Assembly (NCBI GenBank): GCA_003136415.1 | Contig: PLEI01000059.1 | Coordinates: forward strand, 1 to 39,969 | DNA: 39,969 nt | From: Acidimicrobiaceae bacterium | Lineage (GTDB): Bacteria > Actinomycetota > Acidimicrobiia > Acidimicrobiales > RAAP-2 | Direction: 5' to 3' | Part shown: piece by piece, positions 7,301 through 39,017 of the stretch | Layout of the letters: every line of letters begins with the position of its first letter | Numbering within the stretch: position 1 is the stretch's first letter | Notes under the pieces: model-generated | Database searches by the model: none | What the model saw: the letters and a program-made list of their open reading frames with translations, nothing else | Told to the model about the DNA's origin: nothing | Made by a program: the position numbers and the translations under genes

Positions 7301-7377
7301 GGGGCTATAGCTCAGTCGGTTAGAGCGCGTCACTGATAATGACGAGGTCGTAAGTTCGATTCTTACTAGCCCCACCA
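7301..7377 (+). tRNA. tRNA-Ile (anticodon GAT), island attachment site
   Basis: This is a complete cloverleaf: acceptor GGGGCTA paired with TAGCCCC, D-arm TAGCTCAGTCGGTTAGAGC, anticodon loop CTGATAA with GAT, T-arm GTAAG-TTCGATT-CTTAC, discriminator A and an encoded CCA. An Xis-like gene and a tyrosine recombinase follow directly on the same strand, which is the classic arrangement of an element integrated at a tRNA 3' end. Bases 7350-7377 align with a tRNA-like fragment at 35771-35798, the proposed other end of the island. Confidence 0.96.
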
Positions 7378-7405: not shown

Positions 7406-7466
7406 AACCTGCGCCCAGGTTTTTGCTGAGATTCCTCTCATGGTGCTGCCTACGCAAGATGGTCCA

Positions 7467-7496
7467 TTTCGCCACCCAAAGCACCAATTTCGCCAC
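7467..7496 (+). repeat. Paired integrase arm-type site candidate, left end
   Basis: TTTCGCCAC occurs at 7467-7475 and again at 7488-7496, in the same orientation and 21 bp start to start, about 90 bp inside the tRNA end of the island. The same motif pair with the same 21 bp spacing occurs at 35658-35687, about 100 bp inside the right end, and weaker second halves occur in the dispersed repeats. Twenty-one bp is two helical turns, as expected for a protein binding one DNA face. The assignment to the integrase is an inference. Confidence 0.5.
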
Positions 7497-7731: not shown

Positions 7732-8202
7732 ATGCCAGTAGCTGCTGTGGACACCATAACCAGCCGTCGGAACAAATTGTCCGAGGGCCAAGCGGAATTT
7801 CCTCCGAAGACCGTTTCGGTGGCGGAGGCCGCCCGGCTGTGCCGCTGCAGTGACGACACCATCAGGCGGCGACTACACAAGAACAAACTCAGTGGCGCTT
7901 TCCAGGACGGTATCGGTACTGGTGCCCCGTGGCGTGTACCAGTGCCTGCTCTCATCGAGGCCGGGCTCTGCGACCGAAGTGTGCTCAACGAACTCGACGA
8001 ACACCTCAATCCGAATGTTGTCAGGCTCAACACCGAGCTACTCGAGCTGCGCGCGGAACTCATCACCGAGCGGATGTACCGTCAATCCGCCGAGCGCATG
8101 TACGCGGAGGTCTTCGGCGAAGTCCAGTACCTGCGAAAGACGCTGGGCCTAGTACTGGCCATGAGTTCAAGCGCCTCCAAAGACGAGAGCGGAAGCAGTT
8201 GA
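7732..8202 (+). CDS. Xis-like helix-turn-helix protein
   Basis: The 156-residue protein has a MerR/excisionase-type HTH at about residues 23-78: TVSVAEAARLCRCSDDTIRR followed by a wing and VPVPALIEAGL. After it comes a charged helical stretch rich in Glu, Arg and Leu (about 95-140), likely a coiled coil. The start is set by AAGGAG at 7721-7726, five bases before the ATG. Its TGA overlaps the ATG of the integrase gene by one base, so the two are translationally coupled. A role as recombination directionality factor or regulator of the integrase fits this position. The HTH resembles the module inserted in the integrase itself at residues 158-212, suggesting shared ancestry. Confidence 0.7.
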   Translation: MPVAAVDTITSRRNKLSEGQAEFPPKTVSVAEAARLCRCSDDTIRRRLHKNKLSGAFQDGIGTGAPWRVPVPALIEAGLCDRSVLNELDEHLNPNVVRLNTELLELRAELITERMYRQSAERMYAEVFGEVQYLRKTLGLVLAMSSSASKDESGSS

Positions 8203-10535
8203 TGGCGGGTCGACCACTGAGCGCCGAGCCCAAAGACAACAAGGACGGGACAGCGTCCATCCGGGTACCGGTGGCCAACGGGTCGCTGGAACGTAGGACG
8301 TTGCAATTTCCCAACCGGGAGCAGGCGGAGCGCTACCAATCGGCATTGCTGGCTGTTTGGGGAACTGAACAATCTCTCCCCGACGCAGAGCACTTCCAAT
8401 CGGTGCGCCAACGTAACGTCACGCCGATGCCGGACGCTTTCGCCGCCGTGGCAATGGCGTGGTTGAGGAAGTTCTACCCCGATGACTACGAGAACCCCGA
8501 AACCGCAGACGCGGTCGCTCACAAGGTCACCGCCCACCTGATACCGTTCTTCGCACCCCGAGTCGACCACATCTCTGAGATCACCTACAGCGACTGCGAA
8601 GACTTTGTCAACTACAAAGCCGGCCAGCGCAGCCAATCGGCGTCGTCGGGAGCGTTCGTTGCCGAAGCTCGTGACTATACGTTGGCCGACGCTGCCGAGT
8701 GGTCAAGTCGCAGTAAGTCCGCACTACGCAAAGCGTGGCTGGATAAGAGACTGCCCAACGCCTACCTTGACAAATCGTCCGGTAGACAGGGCATCGTCAA
8801 AGTTCCGGTCGGTGACCTCATCAAAGCCGGCTTCACTCCCGGCGCTAAGGCCGCCGAGGTGCCCTGCGGGTACTCACGCAGAAACGTCGGCGAGATGCTC
8901 TCGACGCTTCGTCGCATTTTCGCCTTTGCGAGGGCCAAGGGCCTGATGAGCCAAGATCCTTCTGAGGGCATCAGGGCGAGGAGCCCCGTAAAGGGCGCGC
9001 GCTCCATCCGGTCAAAATCAAAGAAACGACTGTACCTCTTCGACTTGGCGCTCTCCAAGCGCATTGCCCAGCACTTGAACATCCAGCACCAGGTGGCTTA
9101 CTGGCTAATGCGTGGCGTAGGGCTTCGAATCTCCGAGGCCTACGGAATCGACCTCCACGACATCTACCGTGACGAGGGATACATGATCATTCGCGTCTGG
9201 CAACAGGGAGGAAAGAAGTTCAAGGTCCGCGACGATGACGGCAACACAGTCAAGGTTGAGAAGAAGAAGAAGACCAAGACCAAGTCTTCAACGAGGACCA
9301 TCCCAATCCCCAAGCCGGTTGCCGAGTTGATAGAGCTCTACATCGCCGCCTTCCATGAAGAGTCGAACCCCAACACGCCACTCCTGAAGCCGAAGCGTGG
9401 CCTGGGCCAGGCAGCGTTTCGAGCAGCTCTCAAAACCGCCAATCAGCTGGAGCAACACGGCGAAGCCGAGGTGGGCTTCAATGCGACTCCTCACGTGCAA
9501 CGCGCCTTCTTCACCACTGACCTTGACGAATGTCCCCGAAGGGCCAGGTCAAACTACCTGGGCCACCTCGTCCAAGACCATGAAGGCGGAGCCGTCATTA
9601 CCGAGACCGTCTACACGCTCCGTCGCAACGGCGTGCGACAACTGCTGGTTATCGCCGATGCCATGGGGGCCCTAATCGAGAACGAAATTGGAACGCTTCT
9701 CGACCCAGCCCTGGCACACCAGCTGATCCCGACTCGACTCACGCGCAGCGTAGATGAGCGGGACCACGCCCTCGAAGTGCTGGACTCGGCGGGGCTCATT
9801 CGAATCGTCGATATCGACGGTGAGAGCATTCTTGATGTCCCCGAGGCTGCTGAAATGTTGGCCATCAGTGACCGCCAGGTTCGGAGACTCGTCAGCAAAG
9901 GCGTCCTGGACCGTCGCAGGTTTCCCGGTGCTGGAATGACGGCCAACTCGGGCGTCACCTTGTCCTCAGTCGATGCTCACCTCTGCGCCCACCAAGATCT
10001 AACGTCGCGTCGCGATCTCCTGGCCGAGTTCGGACTCAGCTACCGCGAACTCGACATTCTCATTTCGAAGCTGAATATCAAGCCCGTCGAATCCACCACG
10101 CTCGGCCATCGTTACGCCTGGGCAGAGGTCGAGCGTCTCCGCCAGTACTTCAAAGACCGTGCCGCCCTCTCGAGGCGTGCAGTCTCCATTGCCGACACGA
10201 GCAGCGAAATTGGTTGTACCCGGCGCACGGTGGACCGCTTCATCAGCCTCGGTCAACTACGAATCGACGCGACGGCTACCGAGAACCTGGGCCTGACGAT
10301 GATCACCCGCAAGTCCTTGGACGACCTCATCCAGAAACGATCGAAGCGGGCGACTCTCCCTCAGGTCCGTCCCGCCGGCTCCATCCCCATCCTCGAGGCC
10401 CAGCAGCGCGCCGGACTCACCAGGGTCCAGGTGCTCGAGCTAAAGACCCACGGCGTCATCGTGCACCGCACACCCGACTACCAGTTCCACGTTGATGAGG
10501 CCTCGCTAGAGGAATACCTGAAAGGAAGAACATGA
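8202..10535 (+). CDS. int: Tyrosine recombinase (integrase) with multiple extra HTH modules
   Basis: This 777-residue site-specific recombinase is about twice the usual length. The catalytic set is complete: Arg309 in GLRISEA, Lys359 before the SSTRTIPIP strand, His431 and Arg434 in TPHVQRAFF, His455 in LGHL and the nucleophile Tyr471 in TVYTLRR. An HTH-like module (158-212, YTLADAAEWSSRS to VPVGDLIKAGF) sits in the core-binding region. After the tyrosine there are about 300 more residues with four HTH-like units near 544-595, 600-648, 660-710 and 727-772. The ATG at 8202 overlaps the preceding stop; the in-frame extension upstream is cysteine- and arginine-rich shadow of the HTH gene. The gene lies next to tRNA-Ile and very probably integrated the island there. 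Confidence 0.88.
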   Translation: MAGRPLSAEPKDNKDGTASIRVPVANGSLERRTLQFPNREQAERYQSALLAVWGTEQSLPDAEHFQSVRQRNVTPMPDAFAAVAMAWLRKFYPDDYENPETADAVAHKVTAHLIPFFAPRVDHISEITYSDCEDFVNYKAGQRSQSASSGAFVAEARDYTLADAAEWSSRSKSALRKAWLDKRLPNAYLDKSSGRQGIVKVPVGDLIKAGFTPGAKAAEVPCGYSRRNVGEMLSTLRRIFAFARAKGLMSQDPSEGIRARSPVKGARSIRSKSKKRLYLFDLALSKRIAQHLNIQHQVAYWLMRGVGLRISEAYGIDLHDIYRDEGYMIIRVWQQGGKKFKVRDDDGNTVKVEKKKKTKTKSSTRTIPIPKPVAELIELYIAAFHEESNPNTPLLKPKRGLGQAAFRAALKTANQLEQHGEAEVGFNATPHVQRAFFTTDLDECPRRARSNYLGHLVQDHEGGAVITETVYTLRRNGVRQLLVIADAMGALIENEIGTLLDPALAHQLIPTRLTRSVDERDHALEVLDSAGLIRIVDIDGESILDVPEAAEMLAISDRQVRRLVSKGVLDRRRFPGAGMTANSGVTLSSVDAHLCAHQDLTSRRDLLAEFGLSYRELDILISKLNIKPVESTTLGHRYAWAEVERLRQYFKDRAALSRRAVSIADTSSEIGCTRRTVDRFISLGQLRIDATATENLGLTMITRKSLDDLIQKRSKRATLPQVRPAGSIPILEAQQRAGLTRVQVLELKTHGVIVHRTPDYQFHVDEASLEEYLKGRT

Positions 10536-10852
10536 GTGTCCCCCTGCCGCCCGACGAACATCAACTGGTCGAGCAACTTTTAGACCGATTCAGTGACCTC
10601 AAAATGGCTCGAAACTGGTTGCCCAAAAGTCACGAGGATGTGGCATTGGACCCCGCGCTTGCCTACAACGCCATCGTCGAGTGCCTCAAGGCCTTACGCG
10701 CACTTGACGACTGTGCCTTGGAGTTAAACGCCATGCGCGCTGTCAATTCACCCTCCAAGGCCCTCATCGAAATAGTCATAGCAATTGGTAGTAATGCTCA
10801 GCAGGAAATTGAAACCGCGGACGAGGTCCGCTTCCCCTTTTTCGACGAGTAA
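10532..10852 (+). CDS. Small protein of unknown function, coupled to integrase
   Basis: The 106-residue acidic protein starts at an ATG overlapping the integrase stop (ATGA), so it is translated from the same mRNA. It is predicted mostly helical (LVEQLLDRFSDLKMARNWL, YNAIVECLKALRALDD) with no signal peptide, membrane helix or recognisable motif. I do not recognise the family. The coupling suggests a helper or regulator of recombination, but this is context only. Confidence 0.6.
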   Translation: MSVPLPPDEHQLVEQLLDRFSDLKMARNWLPKSHEDVALDPALAYNAIVECLKALRALDDCALELNAMRAVNSPSKALIEIVIAIGSNAQQEIETADEVRFPFFDE

Positions 10853-11997: not shown

Positions 11998-14460
11998 ATG
12001 GCCGTCAAGAAATCTGATCTCTACAGCACCTTGTGGGATGGCGCCAACAAGCTAAGGGGCGGCATGGACGCCTCGCAGTACAAGGATTACGTCTTAGTCC
12101 TCCTCTTCATGAAGTACGTTTCCGACCGCGCGTCGATGCCCGGATCGCTAGCCGAGGTGCCGCAAGACGCAAGTTTCCGCGCTCTGGTCCAGCTGAAGGG
12201 CCGTACGAATATCGGCGAAGAAGTCAACAAGGTCATTGGCCGACTGGCGGCCGCGAATCACCTTCAGGGTGTCATCGATGTCGCCGACTTCGACGACGAG
12301 TCGAAACTCGGGAGGGGCCAGGACAAGGTCGATCGCCTCTCGAACCTGATTGGCATCTTCCAGAACCCTGCGCTCGACTTCTCAGGCAATCGTGCCGATG
12401 GTGACGATTTGCTCGGCGACGCCTACGAGTTCCTCATGCGGAAGTTCGCGACTGAATCAGGTAAGAGCAAAGGGCAGTTCTATACGCCCGCCGAAGTATC
12501 GCGGATCATGGCGAGCGTGATTGGCGTCGACAAAGCTACCAACCAAACACAATCCATCCATGACCCAACATGTGGGTCAGGTGCTCTTCTCCTCAAGGCA
12601 CACGACGCCGCGAAGAGCGCCACGGGTCTCGATCTCGCCATTTACGGACAAGAGATGGATCAAGCCACGGCCGGTCTCGCTCAGATGAACATGTGGCTTC
12701 ACAACGTCGTGACTGCTGAGATCAAGAACGACAACACTCTTTCGCGGCCGCAATTCAAGAATACTTCCGGAGCGGGCCTAAAGACCTTCGACTTCGTTGT
12801 AGCTAATCCCCCGTTCTCGACAAAAGACTGGAGTTTGGGCCTAACACCAAGTGCTGATCCGTATGGTCGATTCGATCTTGGAGTGCCTCCGGCGAAGAAC
12901 GGTGACTACGCCTTCCTGCTTCACGTTCTTGCGTGCCTAAAGAGCACCGGCAAGGGCGCCATCATTCTTCCCCACGGCGTACTCTTTCGAGGAAATTCCG
13001 AAGGTTCGATCCGTCGCGAGATCATCAAGCGCCACTACATCAAAGGGATCATTGGATTACCAGCGAATCTCTTCTACGGAACAGGTATCCCGGCGTGCAT
13101 CATCGTGCTTGACAAGCAAGGGGCGGCTCTCCGAGAAGCAATCTTCATGATCGACGCATCCAGAGGCTTTGAGAAGGACGGCGCAAAGAACCGACTCCGG
13201 GAACGAGACGTTCATCGGATTGTCGATGTCTTCTCCAACCAGATTGAGATACCGGGTTATTCTCGCCTAGTTCCGATCTCAGAGATTGCCGAGCCTCAGA
13301 ACGACTACAACTTAAATCTCCCGTCCTACATTGATTCGTCTGGCCCTGAGGATGTCCAGGATCTAGGAGCACACCTCCGTGGTGGAATTCCGAATTCCGA
13401 CCTCGATGGACTATCTGAATTCTGGTCCGAGTTCGAGAATCTCCGCTTGGACCTCTTTGAAGACGCGCAGCAGCCTGGGTATTCATTGACACGCGTGAGA
13501 ATCGAATCTGTGTATCAGACCGTGTTGAATTCTCCGGATTTCTTGAGTCTTAAGTCGACCGTCTTGCAGGGCTTGGCTCACTGGATTGAGGTGACTGGTC
13601 CGAGTCTCCGAAATCTTAATACTGAGACCAGGCCGAAGGTCCTCTCTGCGGGAATTGCCGAGGCCCTTCTCCAGCAGTTTGCCGACACTCCACTTGTCGA
13701 TCCCTATGCCGTCTACCAGGGCTTTATGTCCTTTTGGAACCATACAATGTCAGACGACATTTATTTGGTTGCTGACATTGGATGGCTAGCCGCGGCGCTA
13801 CCATCTCTTCTCGCTGCTGGTTCAAAGGAGCGCGTCGACTTCACCGTTGCACAGGACAAGTTCAAATCCGAACTGATTCCATCGGCGCTCCTGATCGATC
13901 GATATTTCGCTGACGAAGCTTCATCCAACATGAAGTTGTCGCGCTCGCTAGCTGCAGTCTCTGCCGAAATTGAGGAGCTGCTCGAAGAACACGGACAGGA
14001 GGACGGAGTGCTAAGCGAACTAATTGTCGACGGATCTCGACCGTCCAAGGCAGACGTTACTCGCCGGATCAGAGCATTGGGGGATCTTGAAGATCCAGAT
14101 GATGAGGACGCCAGAGAGGTCGGCGTTCTTGCACAGTTGGCGGAACTACTTGTTACCGAATCTGATACTAAGACAGCGCTTCGAATCGCGAACAATGAGC
14201 TCAACGCGAAGCTAGCCGCGAAGTACGGAGAACTAGCAATTGACGAGATCAAAGATATCGTAGTGAGCGACAAGTGGATTCCGGCAGTCGTCGTAGCTGT
14301 TGAAGCAGAGATAACCCGCGTGGCAAGAGCGGTAAGCGACCGTGTTCACGAACTCTCCACCCGATATGAAACACCCCTGCCTGAACTCATGGCTCAATCT
14401 TCGGCGCTCGACCTCAGCGTTGAACAGTGTCTGACAAAGATGGTGGGGCCATGGCGCTAA
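11998..14460 (+). CDS. hsdM: Type I restriction-modification system, methyltransferase subunit
   Basis: This 820-residue N6-adenine methyltransferase transfers a methyl group from S-adenosylmethionine to adenine in the target chosen by HsdS. The N-terminal helical domain (DLYSTLWDGANKLRGGMDAS) is followed by GQFYTP at 159-164, the SAM-binding loop DPTCGSGALL at 189-198 and the catalytic NPPF at 270-273. The family is commonly 500-550 residues. Here about 270 more residues follow, acidic and helical (EIEELLEEHGQEDG, LRIANNELNAKLAAKYGEL), probably a coiled-coil extension for assembly. The ATG has AAAGGGA in front of it at a good distance. It heads a five-gene run: hsdM, hsdS, hsdR, metallopeptidase, GIY-YIG. 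Confidence 0.93.
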   Translation: MAVKKSDLYSTLWDGANKLRGGMDASQYKDYVLVLLFMKYVSDRASMPGSLAEVPQDASFRALVQLKGRTNIGEEVNKVIGRLAAANHLQGVIDVADFDDESKLGRGQDKVDRLSNLIGIFQNPALDFSGNRADGDDLLGDAYEFLMRKFATESGKSKGQFYTPAEVSRIMASVIGVDKATNQTQSIHDPTCGSGALLLKAHDAAKSATGLDLAIYGQEMDQATAGLAQMNMWLHNVVTAEIKNDNTLSRPQFKNTSGAGLKTFDFVVANPPFSTKDWSLGLTPSADPYGRFDLGVPPAKNGDYAFLLHVLACLKSTGKGAIILPHGVLFRGNSEGSIRREIIKRHYIKGIIGLPANLFYGTGIPACIIVLDKQGAALREAIFMIDASRGFEKDGAKNRLRERDVHRIVDVFSNQIEIPGYSRLVPISEIAEPQNDYNLNLPSYIDSSGPEDVQDLGAHLRGGIPNSDLDGLSEFWSEFENLRLDLFEDAQQPGYSLTRVRIESVYQTVLNSPDFLSLKSTVLQGLAHWIEVTGPSLRNLNTETRPKVLSAGIAEALLQQFADTPLVDPYAVYQGFMSFWNHTMSDDIYLVADIGWLAAALPSLLAAGSKERVDFTVAQDKFKSELIPSALLIDRYFADEASSNMKLSRSLAAVSAEIEELLEEHGQEDGVLSELIVDGSRPSKADVTRRIRALGDLEDPDDEDAREVGVLAQLAELLVTESDTKTALRIANNELNAKLAAKYGELAIDEIKDIVVSDKWIPAVVVAVEAEITRVARAVSDRVHELSTRYETPLPELMAQSSALDLSVEQCLTKMVGPWR

Positions 14461-15674
14461 CAACGCTTATCAGAAGCAAAGAGCGCCATCTCCCGGAAGG
14501 TTGGGCAATGCGATCTTTAGGTTCGTGCCTCGCAGAGCAACCAAGGTACGGGATTGGGGCTTCCGCGGTGCCGGACAATCCGTCCTTGCCTCGATACATT
14601 CGAATAACTGACATAAGTGAACAGGGCAAGCTGACAGGCGCGCTGCCGGTTTCGGTGGACGAACCCAATTCATCCGATTACGCCTTAGAGGATCAGGATA
14701 TGTTGCTTGCGCGCACTGGTGCGAGCGTGGGCAAGTCCCACCTCTTTCGAACAAGAGCTGGTGACCGAGAGTCGGTCTTCGCTGGATATCTCATCAGGAT
14801 TCGTTGCGACCACACTCTCCTTCTACCGACGTTCCTCTCGGCTTTCTTAACCTCGAAGGAATACTGGGACTGGGTGCGGCGCGTGTCTGTCAGGACTGGA
14901 CAACCAGGCATAAGCGCAAGTCAATATGCGTCATTGCAGGTGCCTGTTCCCCCCATCCCAGTACAGCGGGAAATATCTGAATCCATAGATGCGGTGGACT
15001 CATTGATCGACTCGTTGGACTCGCTAATCATTAAGAAACGGCAGATACTACGTGGTGTTCTCCACCAGTTGATGTCCGGCGCGCGACGTCTTCCTGGTTG
15101 GAGTCAAGGTTGGAGCGAGGTCGAGGTCGGGCAGTTATGTTCTCCTCGCAAGAACCGTATCTATCCAGGCATCCCGTCGGCTGCACAATTCTGCGTTGAG
15201 CTTGAGCACATCGAAGGCAAGACCGGCCAGTTAATCGGGGCAACAACCGCAGGCGCAGGGCTCTCCATGAAGACCGAGTTCCACTCAGGTGACGTCTTGT
15301 TCGGAAAACTACGTGCGTACCTGCAGAAGTTCTGGCTAGCTGATAGAAGTGGCGCTTGCTCCACAGAGATATGGGCTCTGGCGCCACAATCAGATCTCAT
15401 CGACTCGCGGTACCTTAGGCAACTCGTAAGCACTCACCGGTTCATTCAAGCGGCAAGCACGGCCTACGGTACTCATATGCCACGGTCAGAATGGAATACG
15501 GTCGCACGACTTCGCTTTCAAATTCCAACGATTCCAGAACAAGAAGCAATCGCTGAAATACTCTCTGGAATGGACAGCGATATTGCAGTTCTTGTGTTGA
15601 GACGCAACAAACTGACCCTAGTGAAACAAGCGATGACGCAGGAATTACTTTCCGGGAGGACTCTACTGCCATGA
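14451..15674 (+). CDS. hsdS: Type I restriction-modification system, specificity subunit
   Basis: The protein has two target-recognition domains separated by helical spacers, as usual for HsdS. The first, about residues 10-170, has LPEGWAMRSLGSC and ends with VPPIPVQREI before the conserved helix SIDAVDSLIDSLDSLIIKKRQIL. The second, about 210-375, runs from LPGWSQGWSEVEVGQL to IPTIPEQEAIAEIL, with a final helix ending TQELLSGR. Each half binds one part of a bipartite DNA target. I use the ATG at 14451, overlapping the hsdM stop by ten bases. A GTG in frame at 14427 is possible, but neither has a strong ribosome site. The stop overlaps hsdR as ATGA. Confidence 0.9.
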   Translation: MALTTLIRSKERHLPEGWAMRSLGSCLAEQPRYGIGASAVPDNPSLPRYIRITDISEQGKLTGALPVSVDEPNSSDYALEDQDMLLARTGASVGKSHLFRTRAGDRESVFAGYLIRIRCDHTLLLPTFLSAFLTSKEYWDWVRRVSVRTGQPGISASQYASLQVPVPPIPVQREISESIDAVDSLIDSLDSLIIKKRQILRGVLHQLMSGARRLPGWSQGWSEVEVGQLCSPRKNRIYPGIPSAAQFCVELEHIEGKTGQLIGATTAGAGLSMKTEFHSGDVLFGKLRAYLQKFWLADRSGACSTEIWALAPQSDLIDSRYLRQLVSTHRFIQAASTAYGTHMPRSEWNTVARLRFQIPTIPEQEAIAEILSGMDSDIAVLVLRRNKLTLVKQAMTQELLSGRTLLP

Positions 15675-18600
15675 CCGACATCAATGAGATTGAGCGCAGG
15701 GCTCAGAATCGTGTGGTCTCCCTCATACGCGACGAGTTGCATTACGAGTACGGAGGCAACGTCCAGGACCGAGCAAACACCAACATCGATGAGTCGCGAC
15801 TTCGTGCATTCCTTCAAGACCCTATACGCCAAGCTTGTTCCGACGCTCTCGTGGCCAAAGTTCTGCACAAGCTCCATCAGGTAGCGAACGACAAGACCAA
15901 GACGCTCTACGACCGCAATCGCAGCGTCTACGACCTGTTGAAGTACGGAGTCAACGTCTTGCCCGAAGTAGGCGAACAGACCGTGACGATCAAGCTCATC
16001 GACTGGGCTAATCCACTTCAAAACGACTTCATGGTGGCCGAAGAAGTCACCGTGGTCGGACCGAGAGCGGTGAAAAGGCCCGACGTTGTTCTTTACGTCA
16101 ACGGAATCGCATTGTCGGTGCTCGAGTTGAAGCGTTCCACGGTCAGTGTCTCCGAGGGGATCCGACAGAACTTAGATAACCAGCGGCCTGAGTTCATTGA
16201 GCACTTCTTTTCCACGATCCAGTGGGTCATGGCCGGCAATGACAGTCAGGGACTTCGCTACGGGACCATCGAGACTCCTGAGAAGTACTACTTGACGTGG
16301 CGGGAAGACGGTGACGAGGAGAGCATCCTTGACCGCGCAATCCTTCAAGTCTGTGAGAAGACGCGTCTGCTTGAATTCATCCACGACTTCATCGTGTTCG
16401 ATGCTGGTATCAAGAAAGTCTGCCGCCACAATCAGTACTTCGGAGTCCGCGCGTCTGAGACCGCGGTAGCCAACCGCGCAGGAGGCATCATCTGGCACAC
16501 TCAAGGCTCCGGCAAGAGCCTCACTATGGTCTGGCTGGCGCAATGGATTCGCGAGCACATCGCCGACTCTCGCGTGCTGATAGTGACCGACCGCAAGGAA
16601 CTTGACGAGCAAATCGAGGGCGTTTTTCAAGGAGTCGGTGCGGAGATCTACCGCACCACGAGCGGTACGGACCTCATCGAAAGCCTTAACACTTCGAACC
16701 CGTGGTTGCTTTGCTCGCTGATCCACAAGTTCGCAAACCGCCGCTCCGATGACAATGTTGATGAACCCGGCTACATACGAGAGCTTCGCGCAGCGCTGCC
16801 GGAAAATTTCACCCCTAAGGGTGACATCTTCGTCTTCATTGATGAGTGCCACCGTTCGCAGTCCAATCTTCTTCACAAGGCCATGAAGGAAATCCTGCCC
16901 GAGGCCGTCTTCATAGGTTTCACCGGTACTCCCCTCTTGAAGAAGGACAAAGCGAAGAGCATCGAGATCTTTGGCCCTTACATTCATACCTACAAGTTCG
17001 ACGAAGCCGTGCGTGACGGAGTCATCGTCGACCTGCGTTACGAGGCGCGAGACATCGATCAGCACATATCAGACCCCGAAGCTATTGACAGATGGTTTGC
17101 TGCCAAGACGAAGGGCCTTAACGACATCGCTAAAGCGCAGCTCAAGAAGCGATGGGGGACCATGCAAGAGGTTCTCTCAAGCAACTCCAGACTCTCTCGA
17201 ATCGTGAGCGACGTCGTTGTCGATATGAATACTCGTGAGCGGCTTGCCAGTGGGCGCGGAAACGCAATCCTCGTGACGGCGAGTATTCGTGACGCATGCG
17301 AGATCTTCGAGCAGTTCCAAAAGACTGAACTCAAGGGCCACTGTGGAATCATCACGTCCTACGCACCGAGCATCTCTGACCTTAAAGGCGAGACCACCGG
17401 CGAAGGTGAGACAGTAACTGAGAAGCAGTACAACGTCTATCGACAGATGCTCGCGGACTGGTTCAAGATCTCCTCCGACGAGGCGATGGGCAAAGTGGAG
17501 ACCTACGAGATTGAGGCCAAGGCTCGTTTCATCAAGGAACCAGGTCAATTGAAACTTCTCGTCGTCGTTGACAAGCTGCTCACGGGCTTCGACGCACCAC
17601 CTGCCACATATCTTTACATCGACAAGCACATGCAGGACCATGGACTCTTCCAGGCAATCTGTCGAGTGAATCGATTGGACGGCGACGACAAGGACTACGG
17701 CTACATCGTCGACTACAAGGACTTGTTCCGCAGTCTCGAGGGTGCAGTCCTCAGTTATACGGGCGAGGCCTTCAGCGGTCTTGACGCCGAAGATGTTGCG
17801 GGCCTTCTCAAGGATCGTGTCGCTGCTGCGCGGGCCGAACTTGACGACACTCGTGAAGCGGTGCGTTCACTGGTCGAACCCGTGACTTTGCCTCGGAGCC
17901 AAGCAGAGTACAGGCACTACTTCTGCACAACCGCGGAGGGTGACGCGAGCCAACTCCAGTCCAACGAGCCCAAGCGTCTTGCCTTCTACAAGGCCGTTGG
18001 CGCTTTCCTACGAGCCTTCGCAAACGTAGCAAACGATTACACAGCCGCAGGGTATTCGGACGCAGAGATTGACACGCTTCGAACAGAAATCGACCTCTTC
18101 GAAGCGGCCCGCACCTACATCCGGTTGGCGAGCGGCGACTTCATCGACCTCAAACTCTACGAACCGGCAATGCGCTTTCTCATGGACTCGTATATCGACG
18201 CTGACGCGAGTCGCAAGATCTCGACATTTGACGACATGTCATTTGTCGATCTCTTGGTCGAGAGGGGCCCGGCCGCCGTCGACTTGCTTCCTGAGCCGCT
18301 CCGTTCACCGGAAGCAGTAGCGGAGACCATCGCCAACAACGTCCGCAGACTCATCATCGATGAGCACCCTATCAACCCGAAGTACTACGACCTCATGTCG
18401 GACCTCCTCGACGCACTGATCGAACAACGACGCCTTCACAGCATCGACTACCAGCGATATCTTGAGGAGATCTCCAATCTCGCCAAGATGGTAAAGGATC
18501 CTTCCTCAAGCGGCTCGTATCCCTCGACTATCGACTCGCGCGGTCGTCAGGCAATCTTCGACTTCGTGGGAAGAGGCGAACAACTAGCGCTACGAGTGGA

Positions 18601-18751
18601 TGGCGCAGTTCGATCGTCGCTCCAAGATGGTTGGCGGGACAACCCCTTCAAAATCAAACTGGTTCGCCAGGGTATTGCATCTGTAATCACCGACAACGAA
18701 GTCGAGGTTGAGGAGATACTCGAGCTGGTAAAGGCCCATGGAGAGTACTGA
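15671..18751 (+). CDS. hsdR: Type I restriction-modification system, endonuclease/translocase subunit
   Basis: This 1026-residue motor-nuclease translocates DNA with ATP and cuts far from the unmethylated site when complexed with HsdM and HsdS. The PD-(D/E)xK nuclease lies near the N-terminus: Asp138 in RPDVVLYV, then Glu152 and Lys154 in LELKRS. The SF2 helicase follows, with Walker A HTQGSGKS at 276-283, DECH at 391-394 and FTGTPL shortly after. Helicase domain 2 includes DKLLTGFDAPPATYLYID and FQAICRVNRLDG. The C-terminal 300 residues are helical and probably contact HsdM. All catalytic residues are present, so the enzyme looks intact. It starts at the ATGA overlap with hsdS and overlaps the next gene by 14 bases. 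Confidence 0.95.
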   Translation: MTDINEIERRAQNRVVSLIRDELHYEYGGNVQDRANTNIDESRLRAFLQDPIRQACSDALVAKVLHKLHQVANDKTKTLYDRNRSVYDLLKYGVNVLPEVGEQTVTIKLIDWANPLQNDFMVAEEVTVVGPRAVKRPDVVLYVNGIALSVLELKRSTVSVSEGIRQNLDNQRPEFIEHFFSTIQWVMAGNDSQGLRYGTIETPEKYYLTWREDGDEESILDRAILQVCEKTRLLEFIHDFIVFDAGIKKVCRHNQYFGVRASETAVANRAGGIIWHTQGSGKSLTMVWLAQWIREHIADSRVLIVTDRKELDEQIEGVFQGVGAEIYRTTSGTDLIESLNTSNPWLLCSLIHKFANRRSDDNVDEPGYIRELRAALPENFTPKGDIFVFIDECHRSQSNLLHKAMKEILPEAVFIGFTGTPLLKKDKAKSIEIFGPYIHTYKFDEAVRDGVIVDLRYEARDIDQHISDPEAIDRWFAAKTKGLNDIAKAQLKKRWGTMQEVLSSNSRLSRIVSDVVVDMNTRERLASGRGNAILVTASIRDACEIFEQFQKTELKGHCGIITSYAPSISDLKGETTGEGETVTEKQYNVYRQMLADWFKISSDEAMGKVETYEIEAKARFIKEPGQLKLLVVVDKLLTGFDAPPATYLYIDKHMQDHGLFQAICRVNRLDGDDKDYGYIVDYKDLFRSLEGAVLSYTGEAFSGLDAEDVAGLLKDRVAAARAELDDTREAVRSLVEPVTLPRSQAEYRHYFCTTAEGDASQLQSNEPKRLAFYKAVGAFLRAFANVANDYTAAGYSDAEIDTLRTEIDLFEAARTYIRLASGDFIDLKLYEPAMRFLMDSYIDADASRKISTFDDMSFVDLLVERGPAAVDLLPEPLRSPEAVAETIANNVRRLIIDEHPINPKYYDLMSDLLDALIEQRRLHSIDYQRYLEEISNLAKMVKDPSSSGSYPSTIDSRGRQAIFDFVGRGEQLALRVDGAVRSSLQDGWRDNPFKIKLVRQGIASVITDNEVEVEEILELVKAHGEY

Positions 18752-19469
18752 GCGCTCGCACCTCGACGTCGGTGGTCTCGTAGTTGAGGTCGTCCGGAAG
18801 GACGTGAAGAACCTTCACCTTGGCGTATACCCACCCTCCGGACGCGTGCGAGTGGCCGCGCCAATCGCTGTTTCGGATGAAGCCGTGCGGCTGGCCGTCA
18901 TAGGGAAACTCCCCTGGATTCGTCGGCAACAAGAAACTTTCAAGCGGCAGCCGCGTCAATCTGCTCGCGAGGCTACGACCGGTGAGAGCCACTATGTTTT
19001 CGGCCAGCGACGACGACTTCGTGTTGTCGCAGACGCCAGTCGGGCCCACGTAGTACAAGCGACTAAAACTCGCCTCGAGATTCATGTACCGCCCGGATCT
19101 ACTCCGGAGTCCCGCGTTGCCGTGCTTGATCGCTGGCAACGACAACTCCTACGAGAAGCAATTGAGCCCCTTTTCGAACAGTGGCAGAAGACCTTAGGGG
19201 TGTCTCCGTCCTCAGTGGGTATCAAGCGAATGAAAACTAAATGGGGTAGTTGCAACGTTGCTTCCGGCAGTGTCTGGATTAACTCTGAACTCGCCAAGAA
19301 GCCAATCGATTGTGTCGAGTACATCGTCGTGCACGAGTTAGTACACCTCTTAGTCCCCACCCACGGAGAGCGGTTTATAGATCTGATGGATCAACACATG
19401 CCCGGCTGGAGGAATCGACGCGATCAGCTCAACTCCATGCCCCTGTCTCATGAGAACTGGAGTTACTAA
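18738..19469 (+). CDS. YgjP-like (DUF45) zinc metallopeptidase
   Basis: The 243-residue protein belongs to the YgjP/DUF45 metallopeptidase family. It has the diagnostic MKTKWGSC block at 165-172, WINSELAKKP at 180-189 and the zinc site HELVHLLVPTHGERF with His199, Glu200, His203 and His209. The N-terminal half is a beta-rich region typical of the family. Genes of this family are often found just downstream of hsdR in type I restriction loci, and here the start overlaps hsdR by 14 bases. The target protein is unknown; turnover of restriction subunits is a reasonable guess without direct evidence. Confidence 0.88.
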   Translation: MESTERSHLDVGGLVVEVVRKDVKNLHLGVYPPSGRVRVAAPIAVSDEAVRLAVIGKLPWIRRQQETFKRQPRQSAREATTGESHYVFGQRRRLRVVADASRAHVVQATKTRLEIHVPPGSTPESRVAVLDRWQRQLLREAIEPLFEQWQKTLGVSPSSVGIKRMKTKWGSCNVASGSVWINSELAKKPIDCVEYIVVHELVHLLVPTHGERFIDLMDQHMPGWRNRRDQLNSMPLSHENWSY

Positions 19470-20330
19470 ATGTCTACAGACACACTACCGCTGACTGCAC
19501 TGGTACCCGAGGCACGCGGGGGTCTGATTGAGATCTACGACCAACACGCCGCTCTCAAACTCACAGTCGTCGAACGAGAGGGTGCACGTCTCGTCGACGA
19601 AGAGTGGGACGTACCGGGGACCTACATCTTGCTAGACCGTCCAGACGAGGATGGCGTCTGGGGTGCCTACGTTGGCAAGGCGCCTAGCGGAGTCCGTAAT
19701 CGTCTCGGAGCACATATACGCAACAAGGACCACTGGTACCGCGCGGTGCTGATTAGACGCGATACGACTCACGGCTTCAACTCCGCACAGGTCGGATGGC
19801 TCGAGGGACGAATGTACGACCTTTTGGCGGCAGCTGAGAACGCGGTGCTTCACAACGGAAACCGTCCAAGCGACGAGACACTTCCCGCTTATGACCGCCA
19901 GATGTTGGAACTCGCCATTCTCCCCGTCACTCGAGTCCTACGACTGCTTGCTCACGACCCGGCGAGCGCGGACGACGTTGCAGAGATCGGCGGCTCTGCT
20001 CCGAAGAGACCCAGGACTAGCCGCTTCTACGGCATAGGGCTCGAGGAGATCATCCGAGCTGGCCTTCTTGCTGCTGGGACGAAGCTCGTATCGGTGAATG
20101 GCTCATGGCCCGCCAGCGCTGTGGTATCGAAAAACGAGCGAATTGAATACCAGGGTAAGGAATACTCGAGCCCATCGACCGCTGCTGGTGTAGTCCGCGG
20201 TGGTGCAGCCAACGGTTGGGACTTCTGGGCCGTAGAGACTGATACCGGCCGAGTTACTCTAGCGACACTTCGCCAGCGCTTCTTAGACGCCACCAACAGC
20301 CCTACGCCTAGCGACGTTGAGAGGGCGTAA
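19470..20330 (+). CDS. GIY-YIG nuclease-like protein with DUF4357/RAMA-type C-terminal domain
   Basis: The 286-residue protein begins directly after the metallopeptidase stop. The N-terminal half (about 48-130) fits a GIY-YIG fold: GTYILL, then AYVGKA, VRNRLGAHI, and a candidate catalytic glutamate at 112 in GWLEGRMYDLL. The C-terminal part (about 195-275) has GTKLVSVNGSWPASAVV, GKEYSSPSTAAGVV and NGWDFWAV. This matches the DUF4357 or RAMA-type domain found with restriction systems and thought to read modified DNA. Together they suggest a nuclease accessory to the type I system, perhaps acting on modified invaders. It closes the restriction operon, and its stop lies inside a hairpin. Confidence 0.78.
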   Translation: MSTDTLPLTALVPEARGGLIEIYDQHAALKLTVVEREGARLVDEEWDVPGTYILLDRPDEDGVWGAYVGKAPSGVRNRLGAHIRNKDHWYRAVLIRRDTTHGFNSAQVGWLEGRMYDLLAAAENAVLHNGNRPSDETLPAYDRQMLELAILPVTRVLRLLAHDPASADDVAEIGGSAPKRPRTSRFYGIGLEEIIRAGLLAAGTKLVSVNGSWPASAVVSKNERIEYQGKEYSSPSTAAGVVRGGAANGWDFWAVETDTGRVTLATLRQRFLDATNSPTPSDVERA

Positions 20331-23197: not shown

Positions 23198-23656
23198 TTA
23201 GAAGGGCTCGACGTCGATCGCGTCGGCACCAAGCGATCCGTAGTATTCCTCCATTGAGGCAATCGATATGGGAGTTCTAGAGATCGCGGAAGGATCCAGG
23301 CCTGCTCGGGCGTTCTTCCACGGGTCCTCAGAGTGAGTGAGGTCGCTCAACTGCTGAGCAGTCAGGTGACCGTATGTGCGAACGATGGCGTCAATCGTCT
23401 CCTTCTCGTTGTTGACGAGAGAGGCAGAGTGGCCGGCCGGCCAACTCGAGATCTCGAAACGCCCGCGGTGCTGCTCATAGAGTTCTGGGCAGACAGGTCC
23501 GTTGCGCCATGCCTGAATTTCGGAGTTAAAGAGCACCTCACCGTCCCAGACCGCGTGCCACGCTTGCGAGTAGTAGGCCAACTTCTGGAACTTCATGGCT
23601 GTCATGGGTCCCGCCTTCTCAACGATGTAGGCGGCGACGTCATTCAAACTGGCCAT
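23198..23656 (-). CDS. Panacea (DUF4065, SocA-like) antitoxin
   Basis: The 152-residue protein is a typical Panacea-domain member: VAAYIVEKAGPMTAMKFQKLAYYSQAW, then FNSEIQAWRNGPVCPELYEQHRG, and a C-terminal helix pair with YGHLTAQQLSDLTHSEDPW. Panacea proteins neutralise many unrelated toxins encoded next to them. The ATG at 23656 has GGGGGAG five bases upstream, which decides it over the longer extension to 23719. The downstream neighbour six bases away is the candidate toxin. Upstream, a short palindrome TGTG-A-CACA near 23693-23705 could be an autoregulatory site. A typical PanAT operon is the most economical reading. Confidence 0.85.
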   Translation of the reverse strand: MASLNDVAAYIVEKAGPMTAMKFQKLAYYSQAWHAVWDGEVLFNSEIQAWRNGPVCPELYEQHRGRFEISSWPAGHSASLVNNEKETIDAIVRTYGHLTAQQLSDLTHSEDPWKNARAGLDPSAISRTPISIASMEEYYGSLGADAIDVEPF

Positions 23657-23887
23657 GAACACTCCCCCTTCGCTAGAACAACTATACGAGGACTGTGTCA
23701 CACTATTGGCGCGGCGCAAGCGTTTATTGGCACGCTAGTGCTGGAATCCCCAGGATTGCTTAGAAATCTCGAGTTAGAAAATGCCCGACTTTTTGTTAGG
23801 AGTCGTCTGCCTCACCATCCAGACCCCAGTGGCAACCTGCTCTGGACTTACGTGCATACCCCTCTAGCCTTGCTCCCCGATACACCT

Positions 23888-24450
23888 GAATTCAAAAATG
23901 GGGTTCAACGACAGGGGCGACATACTGCTGCGAACCGTGTCGTTACCGCAACTCGCTCGTAAAATACAAGTGGACTAGGACCCAAAATGCGTCGAATTGA
24001 TAGTCATCACAGCCATGAGTAATACTCAGGGCTGTGATGACTATCAGTCAGGCCAGCACACAGGAACGAACCACTTCCATTTCACCTATGAAGCCCGCAT
24101 TTCGCCACTTGCCGCACACTGTGACCCAGAATCCCGCGTACGCGCCCGCCGCACCGACCGCTCTCTCCGGCGACTGCAGAGCTCTCTCATCACCTGGCTC
24201 GCACCGCGTTAGCAATCAAGCGCTCGAGTCGTGAAGTCTCCAAAGTTGGCGCCTCCCCAGTGATCTCATCACAGCAAGGTTCGGCGTTTAGTGGAGATTC
24301 TGGTTGATAAAGACCAATTGGGATCCAAATCGACCGATTTAGTTGGCGAGGACTTCGCGAATGCCAGAACCGCGGTCGACCCTTCGGCAAACACTGAAGG
24401 ACTTCACGAGGTGCGGTAATTACGTGCGGGTTCATGTCGGGCCCGGTAAT
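23888..24450 (+). repeat. Dispersed right-end module, copy 1 (with hairpin)
   Basis: This non-coding stretch is the first of three copies of a module. Bases 23888-23968 match 35257-35335 closely (starting GAATTCA). The segment starting ACCCAAAATGCGTCGAATTG near 23980, its hairpin and the following 80 bases match both other copies. Downstream the similarity to copy 3 weakens but returns at TCGACCCTTC-GCAAAC (24376-24392) and GCGGGTTC (24426-24433), in the same order and spacing as near the proposed attR. Small open frames inside the copies are not conserved as proteins. The copy separates the toxin-antitoxin genes from the secreted protein gene and looks like an eroded right end of an earlier element. 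The rest of 23657-24504 shows no gene. Confidence 0.65.
23999..24045 (+). other. Long conserved hairpin in repeat copy 1
   Basis: The arms 23999-24014 and 24030-24045 are perfectly complementary over 16 bases (CATCACAGCC against GGCTGTGATG in the core). Inside an A/G mismatch, TGAGT and ACTCA pair again around AAT. The same structure recurs in the other two copies (29083-29122 and 35369-35410) with a few unpaired positions. No T-run follows. It could be an origin, a regulatory RNA structure or a recombination accessory site. Confidence 0.6.
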
Positions 24451-24504
24451 CCAAAATTGTTGAATGCAAGTTTGTCATTCGGCGAGAACAGATTCCCATC
24501 GTTT

Positions 24505-25203
24505 TCACCACCCGCTGGAGGGCGGAAAATTCCAAATTGCTGTTGTCACCAATTGCCCGTTAATCATGGTCTGACTTATCGCACGGAATTCATAATTAAT
24601 TCCGTTGTGAATGGCGGGTACGACCCAGTCGATTGTTCCTGGCACAGCAGGGTCAGGTTGACTGGTGTAGGCAACGGCCTGCCAATTGCTACTACCCTGC
24701 TCTGCCCATTGGAGTCCTGTCAAACCAGACACCTGACTGACTTCGGGAAGAATCCAATTGCCCAAATTTAAGAACGGCCTCCATGGCATGGTACCCACGG
24801 TTGGCGGCGGAGGACCCAAGTTTGCAACCGTCGTGGTAGTCGTGGTTGTCGTGGTGGTGTTAATGGTCTTTCCAGCCTGAGTAACCTTCCAGCGATGGAC
24901 AGTTGCGGTCTTACCGCGCACGGTCAGTGTGATCTCGTACGGCTTCGCCTTAGTCGATGCGTTCTCCGTGAACCTGGCCAAGCGAACGACATGGCCGGTC
25001 TTGCACTTCACGGTCTTTGTGAATCCCGCAATCTTCGGACTTGACGACCAACCACATGTCTTGGCATTCCTCACCGAGACGGCGAAAGTGACTGAGCCAC
25101 CTGAAGCTCTAACTGTCTTCGTGGCAGCGCCCGCCTGTGTGGCGATGAGGCCGCCTAGACAAAGCGCAGCAGTCGTGACACTGACGACAATCCTGCGCTT
25201 CAT
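24505..25203 (-). CDS. Secreted protein with Thr-rich linker, unknown function
   Basis: The 232-residue protein has a clear signal peptide (MKRRIVVSVTTAALCLGGLIATQAGA cut before ATKT). A beta-rich domain at about 28-108 with two cysteines (CGWSSSP, VKCKTG) follows. Then comes a run of ten threonines at about 115-124 with a proline stretch, and a second domain of about 90 residues ending WNFPPSSGW. The layout resembles exported adhesion or Ig-like proteins of actinobacteria. I do not assign a family. The second domain has features of a fibronectin-like fold (LQWAEQGSSNWQAVAYTS). The gene is less GC-rich than the flanks. It lies just inside repeat copy 1 and may be cargo of the island. Confidence 0.65.
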   Translation of the reverse strand: MKRRIVVSVTTAALCLGGLIATQAGAATKTVRASGGSVTFAVSVRNAKTCGWSSSPKIAGFTKTVKCKTGHVVRLARFTENASTKAKPYEITLTVRGKTATVHRWKVTQAGKTINTTTTTTTTTTVANLGPPPPTVGTMPWRPFLNLGNWILPEVSQVSGLTGLQWAEQGSSNWQAVAYTSQPDPAVPGTIDWVVPAIHNGINYEFRAISQTMINGQLVTTAIWNFPPSSGW

Positions 25204-28951: not shown

Positions 28952-29058
28952 GCAACTCACCATAGGTTCATCTCTCCTCAATCAAAAGTAGGTGTTGAGA
29001 TGTAACGCCCCTGCGCAATTACGCTTAACTTTCACACCATCTATCTCACCTTGCTGCC

Positions 29059-29305
29059 GAACCCAAAATGCGTCGAATTGAAGTTCATCACCGCCATGAG
29101 CAATACTCAGGGCTGTGATGACCATCAGTCAGACCAGCACACAGGAACGAACCACTTCCATTGCACCTATGAAGCCCGCATTTCGCCACTTAGCGCACAC
29201 CAATCGCCAAAGTCGTGCCTACGCGGGCCTTGCGCGCACCGTCTCAGACCAGGGTCATCACCGCGTCGGCGAAACCACCGCCGCGTGTTTCGCTCCGACA
29301 GGTGG
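29059..29305 (+). repeat. Dispersed right-end module, copy 2
   Basis: Bases 29059-29305 are nearly identical to 35348-35593, starting GAACCCAAAATGCG and ending AGGTGG. They include the hairpin and the pair of TCGCCA words at 29183 and 29204 (21 bp apart). This copy lacks the upstream 80-base part present in copies 1 and 3, and the matching downstream part is also missing, so it is truncated on both sides. It separates the hydrolase pseudogene from the GntR-ABC operon. The remainder of 28952-29399 has no gene. Confidence 0.7.
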
Positions 29306-35175: not shown

Positions 35176-35657
35176 GCCAACTACTGTGCCACGGGGCCCG
35201 TACTACGCCAGTACAGCGCACCTCCCGCCAGTCAAGGGCGCGAGTCCTTACCGGGCGAATTCAGAAATGGCGTTCAACGACAGGGGCGACATACTGCTGC
35301 GAACCGTGTCGTTACCGCAACTCGCTCGTAAAAGGCCAATGGAGTAGAACCCAAAATGCGTCGAATTGAAGTTCATCACCGCCATGAGTAATACTCAGGG
35401 CTGTGATGACCATCAGTCAGACCAGCACCCAGGAACGAACCACTTCCATTGCACCTATGAAGCGCGCATTTCGCCACTTGCCGCACACCAATCGCCAAAG
35501 TCGTGCCTACGCGGCCCTTGCGCACACTGTCTCAGACCAGGGCCATCGCCGCGTGCGCGAAATCACCGCCGCGTGTTTCGCTCTTGCAGGTGGCACCACA
35601 AGTGCGCTTGGGCGCCTACGCAGCGGTCACAGGAATTTCTCGACGCGATCCAAGACC

Positions 35658-35687
35658 TTTCGCCACTCACCTAACCTATTTCGCCAA
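35658..35687 (+). repeat. Paired integrase arm-type site candidate, right end
   Basis: TTTCGCCAC at 35658-35666 and TTTCGCCAA at 35679-35687 repeat the pair found at 7467-7496, in the same orientation and with the same 21 bp spacing. They lie about 100 bp inside the proposed attR, mirroring the distance on the left side. Confidence 0.5.
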
Positions 35688-35770: not shown

Positions 35771-35798
35771 GCGGGTTCGCAACCTGCTAGCCCCACCA
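35771..35798 (+). other. Candidate attR: tRNA T-arm and acceptor-like fragment
   Basis: GCGGG-TTCGCAA-CCTGC is a T-arm-like stem-loop followed by TAGCCCCACCA. Aligned without gaps to bases 7350-7377 of tRNA-Ile, 20 of 28 positions agree. The last 12 (CTAGCCCCACCA) are identical, and the T-stem differences are compensated on both strands. This is what the displaced 3' end of the original tRNA should look like after integration. A short identical core and a similar GCCCCACCACG word at 39735 keep the call tentative. Confidence 0.45.
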
Positions 35799-35997
35799 CG
35801 AGGGTTTCCCATAATTGGCGGAAATCTTTCCGATAAATGATTCGATAAATCGGGCGTCCGGCCACACACTCTCGGTGGGGTTACGGCGTCTCCAGCAACC
35901 AGTGGGATAGTTGGGGTGGTCGGCCGCGCAACAGCTTCATCACCTTAACGAGCAACCGGGGCTCTTCATTGATGGAATTGCCGCAATAGGTGACTTG

Positions 35998-37317: not shown

Positions 37318-37329
37318 GATCGCCCTCCG

Positions 37330-37677
37330 TTACTGGACCGACAGGATCATGGATGCGAGTTCGTCCTTGCGGTATCCCTGCTCGCGCGCGAGTAAGACGA
37401 GTTCGTTGATCTTGGTCAGAAGTGCACTGCGCGCGGGAGTTCCGACCACCCGGATGCCACGGCCTCTCGTGAAATCAAGGACGCCCTCGTCTCGCAGTAT
37501 GTGTAGCGCCCGAATAACGGTGTTCTTGTTCACTTCCAGGACGGCGGCAAGGTCAACCGCAGGCGGGAGGCGTTCGCCTTCAGCCGCTTCACCATCTGCA
37601 ATCGCACGCCGGATCTCTGCGGCAACTTGGTGGTGCAGAGACACCGGTTCATTCCTGTTGACTTGGGAGAATTTCAT
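37330..37677 (-). CDS. GntR-family regulator, YtrA type
   Basis: The 115-residue protein has the GntR winged helix (LHHQVAAEIRRAIADGE, LPPAVDLAAVLEVNKNTVIR, ALHILRDEGVLDFTRGRGIRVV) and a short helical end. I use the ATG at 37677; the longer form to 37746 would cross the operator and the divergent start. The ATG lies at the edge of a perfect 7-5-7 palindrome (37679-37697), so the protein should repress its own operon and the divergent gene at once. Unlike usual YtrA regulators its partner is not an ABC transporter but a membrane-anchored propeller. Confidence 0.85.
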   Translation of the reverse strand: MKFSQVNRNEPVSLHHQVAAEIRRAIADGEAAEGERLPPAVDLAAVLEVNKNTVIRALHILRDEGVLDFTRGRGIRVVGTPARSALLTKINELVLLAREQGYRKDELASMILSVQ

Positions 37678-37678
37678 A

Positions 37679-37697
37679 GTACTATCTCGAATAGTAC
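37679..37697. promoter_or_regulatory. Shared GntR operator and divergent promoters
   Basis: GTACTAT-CTCGA-ATAGTAC is a perfect palindrome between the GntR gene and the divergent gene. TACTAT is a plausible -10 box on the plus strand (37680-37685) and, through the symmetry, also on the minus strand (37696-37691). One bound repressor could close both promoters. Confidence 0.6.
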
Positions 37698-37727
37698 CAT
37701 CATCTGACCGTGTGGCAAGGAGTACTG

Positions 37728-39016: not shown

Positions 39017-39017
39017 G

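Follow-up and report, generated by a model that had tools for sequence, protein, structure and literature searches.

The window analyzed here, 39,969 nucleotides of an Acidimicrobiaceae bacterium (bases 1-39969 of contig C71, which spans 56,524 bp in a genome of 2.64 Mb and 116 contigs), encodes a tyrosine recombinase of 777 amino acids (8202-10535, + strand) predicted to carry one winged helix-turn-helix (HTH; winged, wHTH) unit inserted within its core-binding domain and four further HTH or wHTH units after its catalytic tyrosine. Judged by the conservation of the units among relatives, this multi-HTH architecture is inherited and real. The gene belongs to an integrated element of about 28.4 kb (7366-35798, core to core), which, from its attachment (att) repeats, its arm words and the comparison of its flanks, is a tRNA-3'-end genomic island of the type that this integrase drives.

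The 777-codon frame is uninterrupted, in agreement with the coordinates given in an earlier note on this DNA, and ATG 8202 was retained as its start because the preceding gene overlaps it and relatives keep an M-x-RPL-like beginning. The protein belongs to the tyrosine recombinase superfamily by its catalytic set and by its fold. The set R309-K359-H431-R434-H455-Y471, which the earlier note had described as complete and ending near residue 471, is present, and all six positions are kept in the 44 rows of alignment A2, composed of the window and 43 relatives taken from 58 reading frames and selected for length, which favours intact genes. The best Foldseek matches of the catalytic domain (residues 281-475, 9042-9626, + strand) are Cre, Tn1549 Int, XerA and lambda Int. 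The Pfam Phage_integrase profile scores 26.7 bits on the whole protein, slightly below its cut-off of 27.1, and the integrase family phrog_1 of PHROGs matches with an expectation value (E) of 7e-23.

The domain layout was derived from an AlphaFold2 model based on A2 (mean predicted local distance difference test, pLDDT, 82.3; predicted template modelling score, pTM, 0.55) and from a separate model of residues 478-777 alone (pLDDT 82.6). The N-terminus is modelled as strands 11-12, 18-23 and 31-36 followed by helix 39-52, a predicted arm-binding-like fold (residues 10-52, 8229-8357) in which one of the three strands counts two residues only. The core-binding helices 80-139 and 226-245 are split by the wHTH at residues 158-208 (8673-8825). 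After Y471, helix 475-495 and a helix-rich link lead to the four C-terminal units, named C1 (541-597, 9822-9992), C2 (600-659, 9999-10178), C3 (660-717, 10179-10352) and C4 (727-775, 10380-10526), all encoded on the + strand. The modelled units follow a strand-helix-helix-...-strand-helix pattern, with a two-strand wing in the insert, C1 and C2, and a single strand in its stead in C3 and C4. The model of residues 478-777 alone reproduces all four C-terminal units, and a C-terminal part made of one single unrelated domain is ruled out, both models giving four separate HTH units. The earlier note had proposed one inserted and about four C-terminal HTH-like modules, at residues 158-212, 544-595, 600-648, 660-710 and 727-772, and had advised structure prediction of residues 150-215 and 480-777; HTH folds are seen in every one of these segments, all five modules being modelled as HTH or wHTH within the limits given above.

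That note had also advised a comparison of each unit with MerR/Xis domains, and the modules are supported as HTH folds of the Xis/MerR kind. C1 is firmly of this kind and is the sole unit passing a curated sequence cut-off (Pfam HTH_17 at residues 544-570, 33.9 bits against a cut-off of 27), whereas the insert, C2, C3 and C4 pass none among the Pfam and TIGR-type profiles, C3 being barely below the cut-off of HTH_28 (24.5 bits against 25). The predicted HTH identity of the insert, C2 and C4 derives from the models and from profile comparison. Structures were compared with VIA-align 2 on Foldseek's top chains, where a Z score below 8 can reflect a common arrangement. C1 (model residues 64-122) matched Xis of mycobacteriophage Pukovnik with Z 9.1 (root-mean-square deviation 1.6 over 53), BldC with Z 8.0 and the GIsul2 excisionase with Z 6.7. 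The best matches of C2 were MerR-type domains, IF2 and RacA (Z about 6 to 6.6, the RacA match covering C2-C3), C3 matched proteins of two phage packaging entries (6hn7, Z 6.9; 7lxs, Z 6.2), and the best listed match of C4 was the C-terminal HTH of TniQ (Z 6.5). Because of this reading of Z scores below 8, only C1 is firmly Xis/BldC-like by comparison of its model. In a profile search of solved structures with the array, BldC came first (E 5e-6) and Pukovnik Xis was found with E 0.002; a repeat protein labelled CAP REPEAT (8vd6) ranked second there, from summed weak stretches. A human UFL1/DDRGK1 chimera, which had the top E-value in a Foldseek search of the C-terminal model, was discarded as a generic match (template modelling scores 0.13-0.15).

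Other integrases of the same architecture, for which the earlier note had recommended a search, were found. Some match was present in 36 of 100 genomes, mostly to the catalytic region only, with near-full-length matches at loci L002-L005 and L007, and a scan of assembled contigs that used a single catalytic-domain peptide pattern yielded 53 loci. The titles of these relatives are mostly those of Acidimicrobiales or other actinobacterial metagenome-assembled genomes (MAGs) and of Nocardioides isolates, with a few odd ones (a Bifidobacterium breve MAG for L046 and L049, an Acidobacteria bacterium for L067 and an uncultured bacterium for L060). A profile of the C-terminal array, scanned over the phylum Actinomycetota, matched at E 1e-10 in at least 5 of 396 genomes, the window's own included. 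A2 excludes 14 short or broken frames (L030, L039, L045, L052, L053, L056, L059, L060, L065, L069, and the two pieces each of L071 and L073) as well as L058, a near-copy of L057; its rows L034, L041 and L044 begin inside the gene, and L025 and L031 stop after C3, possibly cut by a frameshift. C1, C2 and C3 are filled in all 44 of these long rows, the insert in 30 and C4, which is thus optional within the family, in 34. On a tree of the catalytic domain, unsure in places owing to several long branches, the four states of insert and C4 need 9 changes against 16.9 in shuffles, so that the optional modules appear to track descent, yet are gained and lost. The window integrase had no match in plasmid or phage collections, L054 none among plasmids and L051 none among phages, and 23 pattern-matching stretches of viral contigs yielded no confirmed member. 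tRNA-targeting islands with integrases of this family occur in Acidimicrobiales and Nocardioides, and one clade probably consists of conjugative elements. The genome of the window harbours a second multi-HTH integrase, on contig C78 (locus L077, matched part 23203-24915, - strand), with a tRNA-Met gene upstream on the same strand.

Between the tRNA gene and the integrase lies an open reading frame (ORF) of 156 codons (7732-8202, + strand), of which the ATG is preceded by GAAGGAG and the stop overlaps the integrase start (TGATG). The encoded wHTH and coiled-coil-like protein is a candidate excisionase or directionality factor, on account of a match to the excisionase-type profile TIGR01764 (E 4e-4, 20.6 bits, under the cut-off of 28.8) and of its conservation, which includes the coiled-coil-like tail. 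This small gene was detected within 1.5 kb upstream of the integrase in 39 of 57 loci (15 of them used to build the search profile and 24 independent; the match at L059 is weak, E 2e-4), with the TGATG junction in 24 of the 39. Among the 18 loci without it, eight have less than 200 bp of upstream sequence, three are integrase fragments (L052, L056 and L073), and the remaining seven (L037, L046, L047, L049, L060, L066 and L071) also lack the N-terminal domain of the integrase. This joint absence fits the association described in passages of PMC8138268, where Xis is reported only with arm-binding-domain recombinases.

The inserted wHTH of the integrase is closer to the wHTH of this small protein than to C1-C4 (hhalign E 5e-19, the best of 15 unit pairs, against 2e-9 or worse for C1-C4; mean pairwise score 54.5, the next unit reaching 31.0). 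For this reason the insert is a paralogue of the probable directionality factor, lodged in the core-binding domain, both copies having been retained. A recent capture of the small-gene HTH by each integrase is ruled out by the mean score of own-element pairs (39.3, 7 pairs), which are no closer than pairs with other elements (mean 54.1); the relation is older. The suggestion of the earlier note that the extra modules replace a separate excision factor is thus contradicted, given a wHTH partner gene that overlaps the integrase start, is widespread in the family and has the insert as its closest paralogue.

The integration target is a tRNA-Ile(GAT) gene (7301-7377, + strand; ARAGORN), for which matches exist in 72 of 80 congeneric genomes. 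The 12 nt at its 3' end (7366-7377) constitute the attL core and are repeated with 12 of 12 identities as the attR core, CTAGCCCCACCA, at 35787-35798 (+ strand), with no further copy on the contig; the attR core is preceded by a T-arm-like stretch which differs from the tRNA. This 12-nt rule is independently supported by two Nocardioides elements, N. currus, in which the last 12 nt of a tRNA-Met are repeated 46,587 bp downstream, and Nocardioides sp. zg-1230, with the last 12 nt of its tRNA repeated 34,859 bp downstream, the right ends of both being alike on either side of the repeat. A search for att repeats in eight elements retrieved 12 nt in L054 and L058 and an 11-nt candidate in L070; in L064 several 10-nt words did not stand out from chance, no repeat was seen at the tRNA end of L048 and G233, and none within the 13.9 and 16.4 kb examined for L057 and L062. 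More generally, of the 56 loci scanned, 20 have a same-strand tRNA gene ahead of the integrase, as do in addition the window, the second copy on C78 (tRNA-Met) and G233. The tRNA types concerned are Ile, Arg, Thr, Ala, Met, Val and Tyr, and the gap to the integrase ranges from 138 to 981 bp in 20 measured cases (186 bp in L047). The other 36 of the 56 loci, many of them on short contigs, have no such tRNA gene; they include the clade of L036, though 5-10 kb of upstream sequence is present for several of its members, and no Rfam family was found in six of its loci.

The right limit at 35798 is supported by CGAGGGTTTCC, immediately to its right, which resembles the sequence that other genomes have after this tRNA (10 of 30 loci begin with CGAGG or CGGGG). 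Of 30 tRNA-Ile loci of the genus, 24 share some of the flank that lies upstream in the window (about 5.8-7.2 kb), seven match the downstream flank (C71 48.2-51.3 kb) and four match both (L096, L099, L107 and L116); L097, L098 and L100, with no upstream match, resume at 48.2 kb, 26-121 nt from the tRNA. Because the flanks of relatives resume at 48.2 kb, about 41-43 kb of extra DNA is present at the tRNA-Ile of the window genome. As other DNA lies to the right of attR, the comparison of the 30 loci did not reveal an empty site of the element itself. It suggests a second element between 35.8 kb and about 48 kb: a probable accreted element extends from 35799-39969 of the window to about 48.1 kb of C71, and the chromosomal flank resumes near 48.2 kb.

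The repeated sites spaced by 21 bp, already mentioned in the earlier note, are real. Two copies of the 10-nt direct repeat ATTTCGCCAC occupy 7466-7475 and 7487-7496 in the left arm, where the word GCCTACGCA is found at 7448-7456 and again at 7597; in the right arm, GCCTACGCA recurs at 35614-35622 and the 8-nt word TTTCGCCA is repeated at 35658-35665 and 35679-35686, 21 bp apart, a pair that is weak over 12 nt (all on the + strand). TTTCGCCA is also present in the left arm at 7467 and 7488. In a lag test over 19 elements, in which the best 12-nt self-match was recorded for each lag from 13 to 60 in the 260 bp following the tRNA, lag 21 came top of the 48 lags (8.58 against 7.21 in shuffles, standard deviation 0.23), and none of 300 shuffles reached this value at any lag. 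The test excludes L050, a near-copy of L051, and L057 and L058, near-copies of L054; an earlier tally comprised 20 segments, including L050 and L057 and without G233. A clear left-arm pair (at least 9 of 12 positions) is present in 7 of the 19 elements; six pairs begin between +72 and +98 after the tRNA, and four of them at +86/+87 (window, L021, L007 and L063) despite different tRNAs. It is plausible that the extra modules read these arm sites. Furthermore, three direct copies of a repeat of 170-260 nt occur within the element (23888-24147, 28969-29228 and 35257-35516, 5.1 and 6.3 kb apart) and, in this genome, are confined to this contig; each contains the arm-site word GCATTTCGCCAC and two also contain GTGCCTACGCGG. 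These copies could be operators, or remnants of former right ends.

We propose, at about even chances, that the C-terminal units form a short covalent Xis/BldC-like array which sits on the attachment arms and bends or tethers them, the small upstream protein acting as the directionality factor. The units would lie side by side on the arm DNA, each covering roughly one turn of the double helix or a small multiple thereof, and the bent or tethered arms would allow the catalytic domains to meet at the tRNA core; the small protein, a regulated factor, would join or displace the array and thereby tip the reaction toward excision. According to passages of PMC11963761, BldC and RdfS/Xis-type wHTHs bind DNA as head-to-tail filaments, with one DNA turn between molecules of BldC, and in the lambda excision complex the P arm is bent by three Xis molecules, which also touch Int (PMC4880445). 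If fused to the recombinase, a string of units of this sort could achieve the same in cis. A bolder and rather doubtful version would see the integrase as carrying a pre-polymerised excisionase filament, the nucleoprotein arm having a length fixed by the number of units and the direction being decided by the small wHTH joining the existing filament.

Several observations weigh against the proposal of an arm-bound array. That these folds bind the arms is our inference, and the arrangement of the domains relative to one another is unreliable in the models (pTM 0.50-0.55). No clear 21-bp pair is present in the remaining 12 of the 19 elements; lag 21 falls outside the four best lags in each right arm examined (window, L054, L058 and L070); and a control upstream of the tRNAs (n=16) places lag 21 second of 48 (7.94, top 8.06), for which reason the positional clustering of the pairs is the stronger part of the lag evidence. 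The integrases of L051 and L063 have neither insert nor C4, yet their elements have a 21-bp pair, so that the insert and C4 alone cannot be its readers. The family-average charge is slightly acidic for C1 (-0.3) and C2 (-0.95) and near neutral for the recognition helix of C4 (+0.24), and given these values some units may not bind DNA; it is positive for the insert (+3.9) and C3 (+2.5).

The charges also bear on a different role, in which the array would be a protein-protein or oligomerisation module with little or no DNA binding, holding the integrase tetramer together or docking the small coiled-coil protein. The near-neutral or acidic averages of C1, C2 and the C4 recognition helix, the best listed match of C4, a TniQ HTH that comes from a complex with Cascade, and the conserved tail of the partner protein are all in its favour; however, C1 is a canonical HTH_17 unit with Xis and BldC as its best matches, and C3 is basic across the family; on balance we regard this role as unlikely. 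The location of the 21-bp pairs, between the tRNA and the small gene, would suit operators as well, through which the array would regulate transcription of the small gene and the integrase from the intervening promoter region. The word ATTTCGCC indeed recurs at three inner positions of the element (24099, 29180 and 35468), and RdfS and BldC-type wHTHs also act on transcription (passages of PMC11963761), but the same words stand in the far right arm of the window beside attR, where an integrase promoter is not needed, and we regard a regulatory array as quite improbable.

The use of different tRNAs (seven types, as listed above) by related integrases, while their C-terminal units diverge, could be taken to mean that the array reads host DNA around the tRNA gene and sets which tRNA is used. 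The core specificity of tyrosine integrases is, however, normally set by the core-binding and catalytic domains, and target choice by the array seems very unlikely. Finally, the extension could have little function or the element could be decayed, as might be suspected from a MAG sequence and from the T-arm-like stretch at attR which departs from the tRNA; the open frame, the catalytic set and the presence of C1-C3 in all 44 long rows, from several families though chosen for length, speak against it, and we give this explanation hardly any credit.

In comparison with known systems, the integrase is a variation on the arm-binding tyrosine integrases and not a separate kind. With lambda Int, IntTn916 and the pSAM2-type integrases it shares the catalytic set, the core-binding domain, the N-terminus of three strands and one helix, the tRNA 3'-end target and a neighbouring excisionase-like gene; what sets it apart is a wHTH within the core-binding domain, together with four units following the tyrosine, and none of the subgroup descriptions in passages of PMC8138268 mentions such an insert with C-terminal units. 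C1 resembles the HTH_17-Xis-BldC excisionases and directionality factors (Pukovnik Xis, GIsul2 Xis, RdfS) in fold and sequence profile, but Xis and RdfS are described, in passages of PMC11963761, as separate small proteins that oligomerise on DNA, whereas the units of the window are fused serially to the recombinase. The element also shares tRNA 3'-end integration, a tyrosine integrase and a putative directionality gene with actinomycete integrative and conjugative elements (AICEs). Membership in this group is ruled out by the absence of FtsK-like transfer or replication genes among 24 element ORFs scanned (all those of at least 250 amino acids save one antisense to hsdR), L036 having a VirB4/TraG-like gene instead; passages of the AICE survey PMC3218068 report none in Acidimicrobidae. 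The long actinobacterial recombinases related to Tn554 TnpB are similar in length (611-828 amino acids) and in their occurrence in Actinobacteria, but passages of PMC3414803 describe them with a long N-terminal extension and, mostly, an adjacent second recombinase. In the window the extra part is mainly C-terminal (Y471 of 777) and a scan of nine neighbouring ORFs revealed no second recombinase, which rules out this membership too. Searches of the open-licence PubMed Central literature brought up no title or opening abstract that describes a C-terminal HTH array on a tyrosine recombinase, which is weak as proof of absence.

In lambda-type systems, separate wHTH proteins that assemble on the arms determine the direction of recombination. 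Modules that are fused serially, countable and variable in number (three to five) would allow the part of each one in arm folding and directionality to be tested by its removal. The family is also the hallmark of a class of tRNA-targeting islands whose cargo includes restriction-modification and, judged from the genes present, mercury resistance. In the window, a 106-codon ORF without Pfam match (10532-10852) overlaps the integrase stop and is followed by the type I restriction-modification genes hsdM, hsdS and hsdR (11998-18751; Pfam, PADLOC), a YgjP-like metallopeptidase gene (18738-19469) and a gene for a RAMA-domain protein matching the PADLOC candidate PDC-S14 (19470-20330; Pfam, PADLOC), the ORF, the hsd genes and the RAMA gene being on the + strand. 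The element of zg-1230 encodes an alkylmercury lyase, a MerR regulator, a pyridine nucleotide-disulphide oxidoreductase, a P-type ATPase and a cation efflux protein, and is by this content a putative mercury and metal resistance island. In L036, a gene for a TraG/TraC (VirB4-like) ATPase lies about 6.4 kb before the integrase, which suggests that L036-type loci are conjugative elements in Acidimicrobiales. L036, L042, L032, L023 and L027 resemble one another in their reading frames over as much as about 9 kb upstream of the integrase.

Additional observations were made around the target sites. An inverted repeat of 97 nt, 89% alike, links the DNA right of attR (35879-35975) to the inside of a gene of 439 codons (36936-37032, within 35998-37317, - strand); its mismatches are not A-specific and give no sign of a diversity-generating template, and the gene does not adjoin a tRNA in 10 loci of relatives. 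On contig C77 of genome G027, a full tRNA-Ile gene (17158-17234) is accompanied, 7.1 kb away, by a 56-nt copy of its 3' part (24312-24367, 95% alike), which may represent a small element of a different type inserted at this hot spot. In Nocardioides silvaticus (L055, 9193-9235), just the last ~43 nt of a tRNA-Met precede the integrase operon, perhaps a displaced end from another element.

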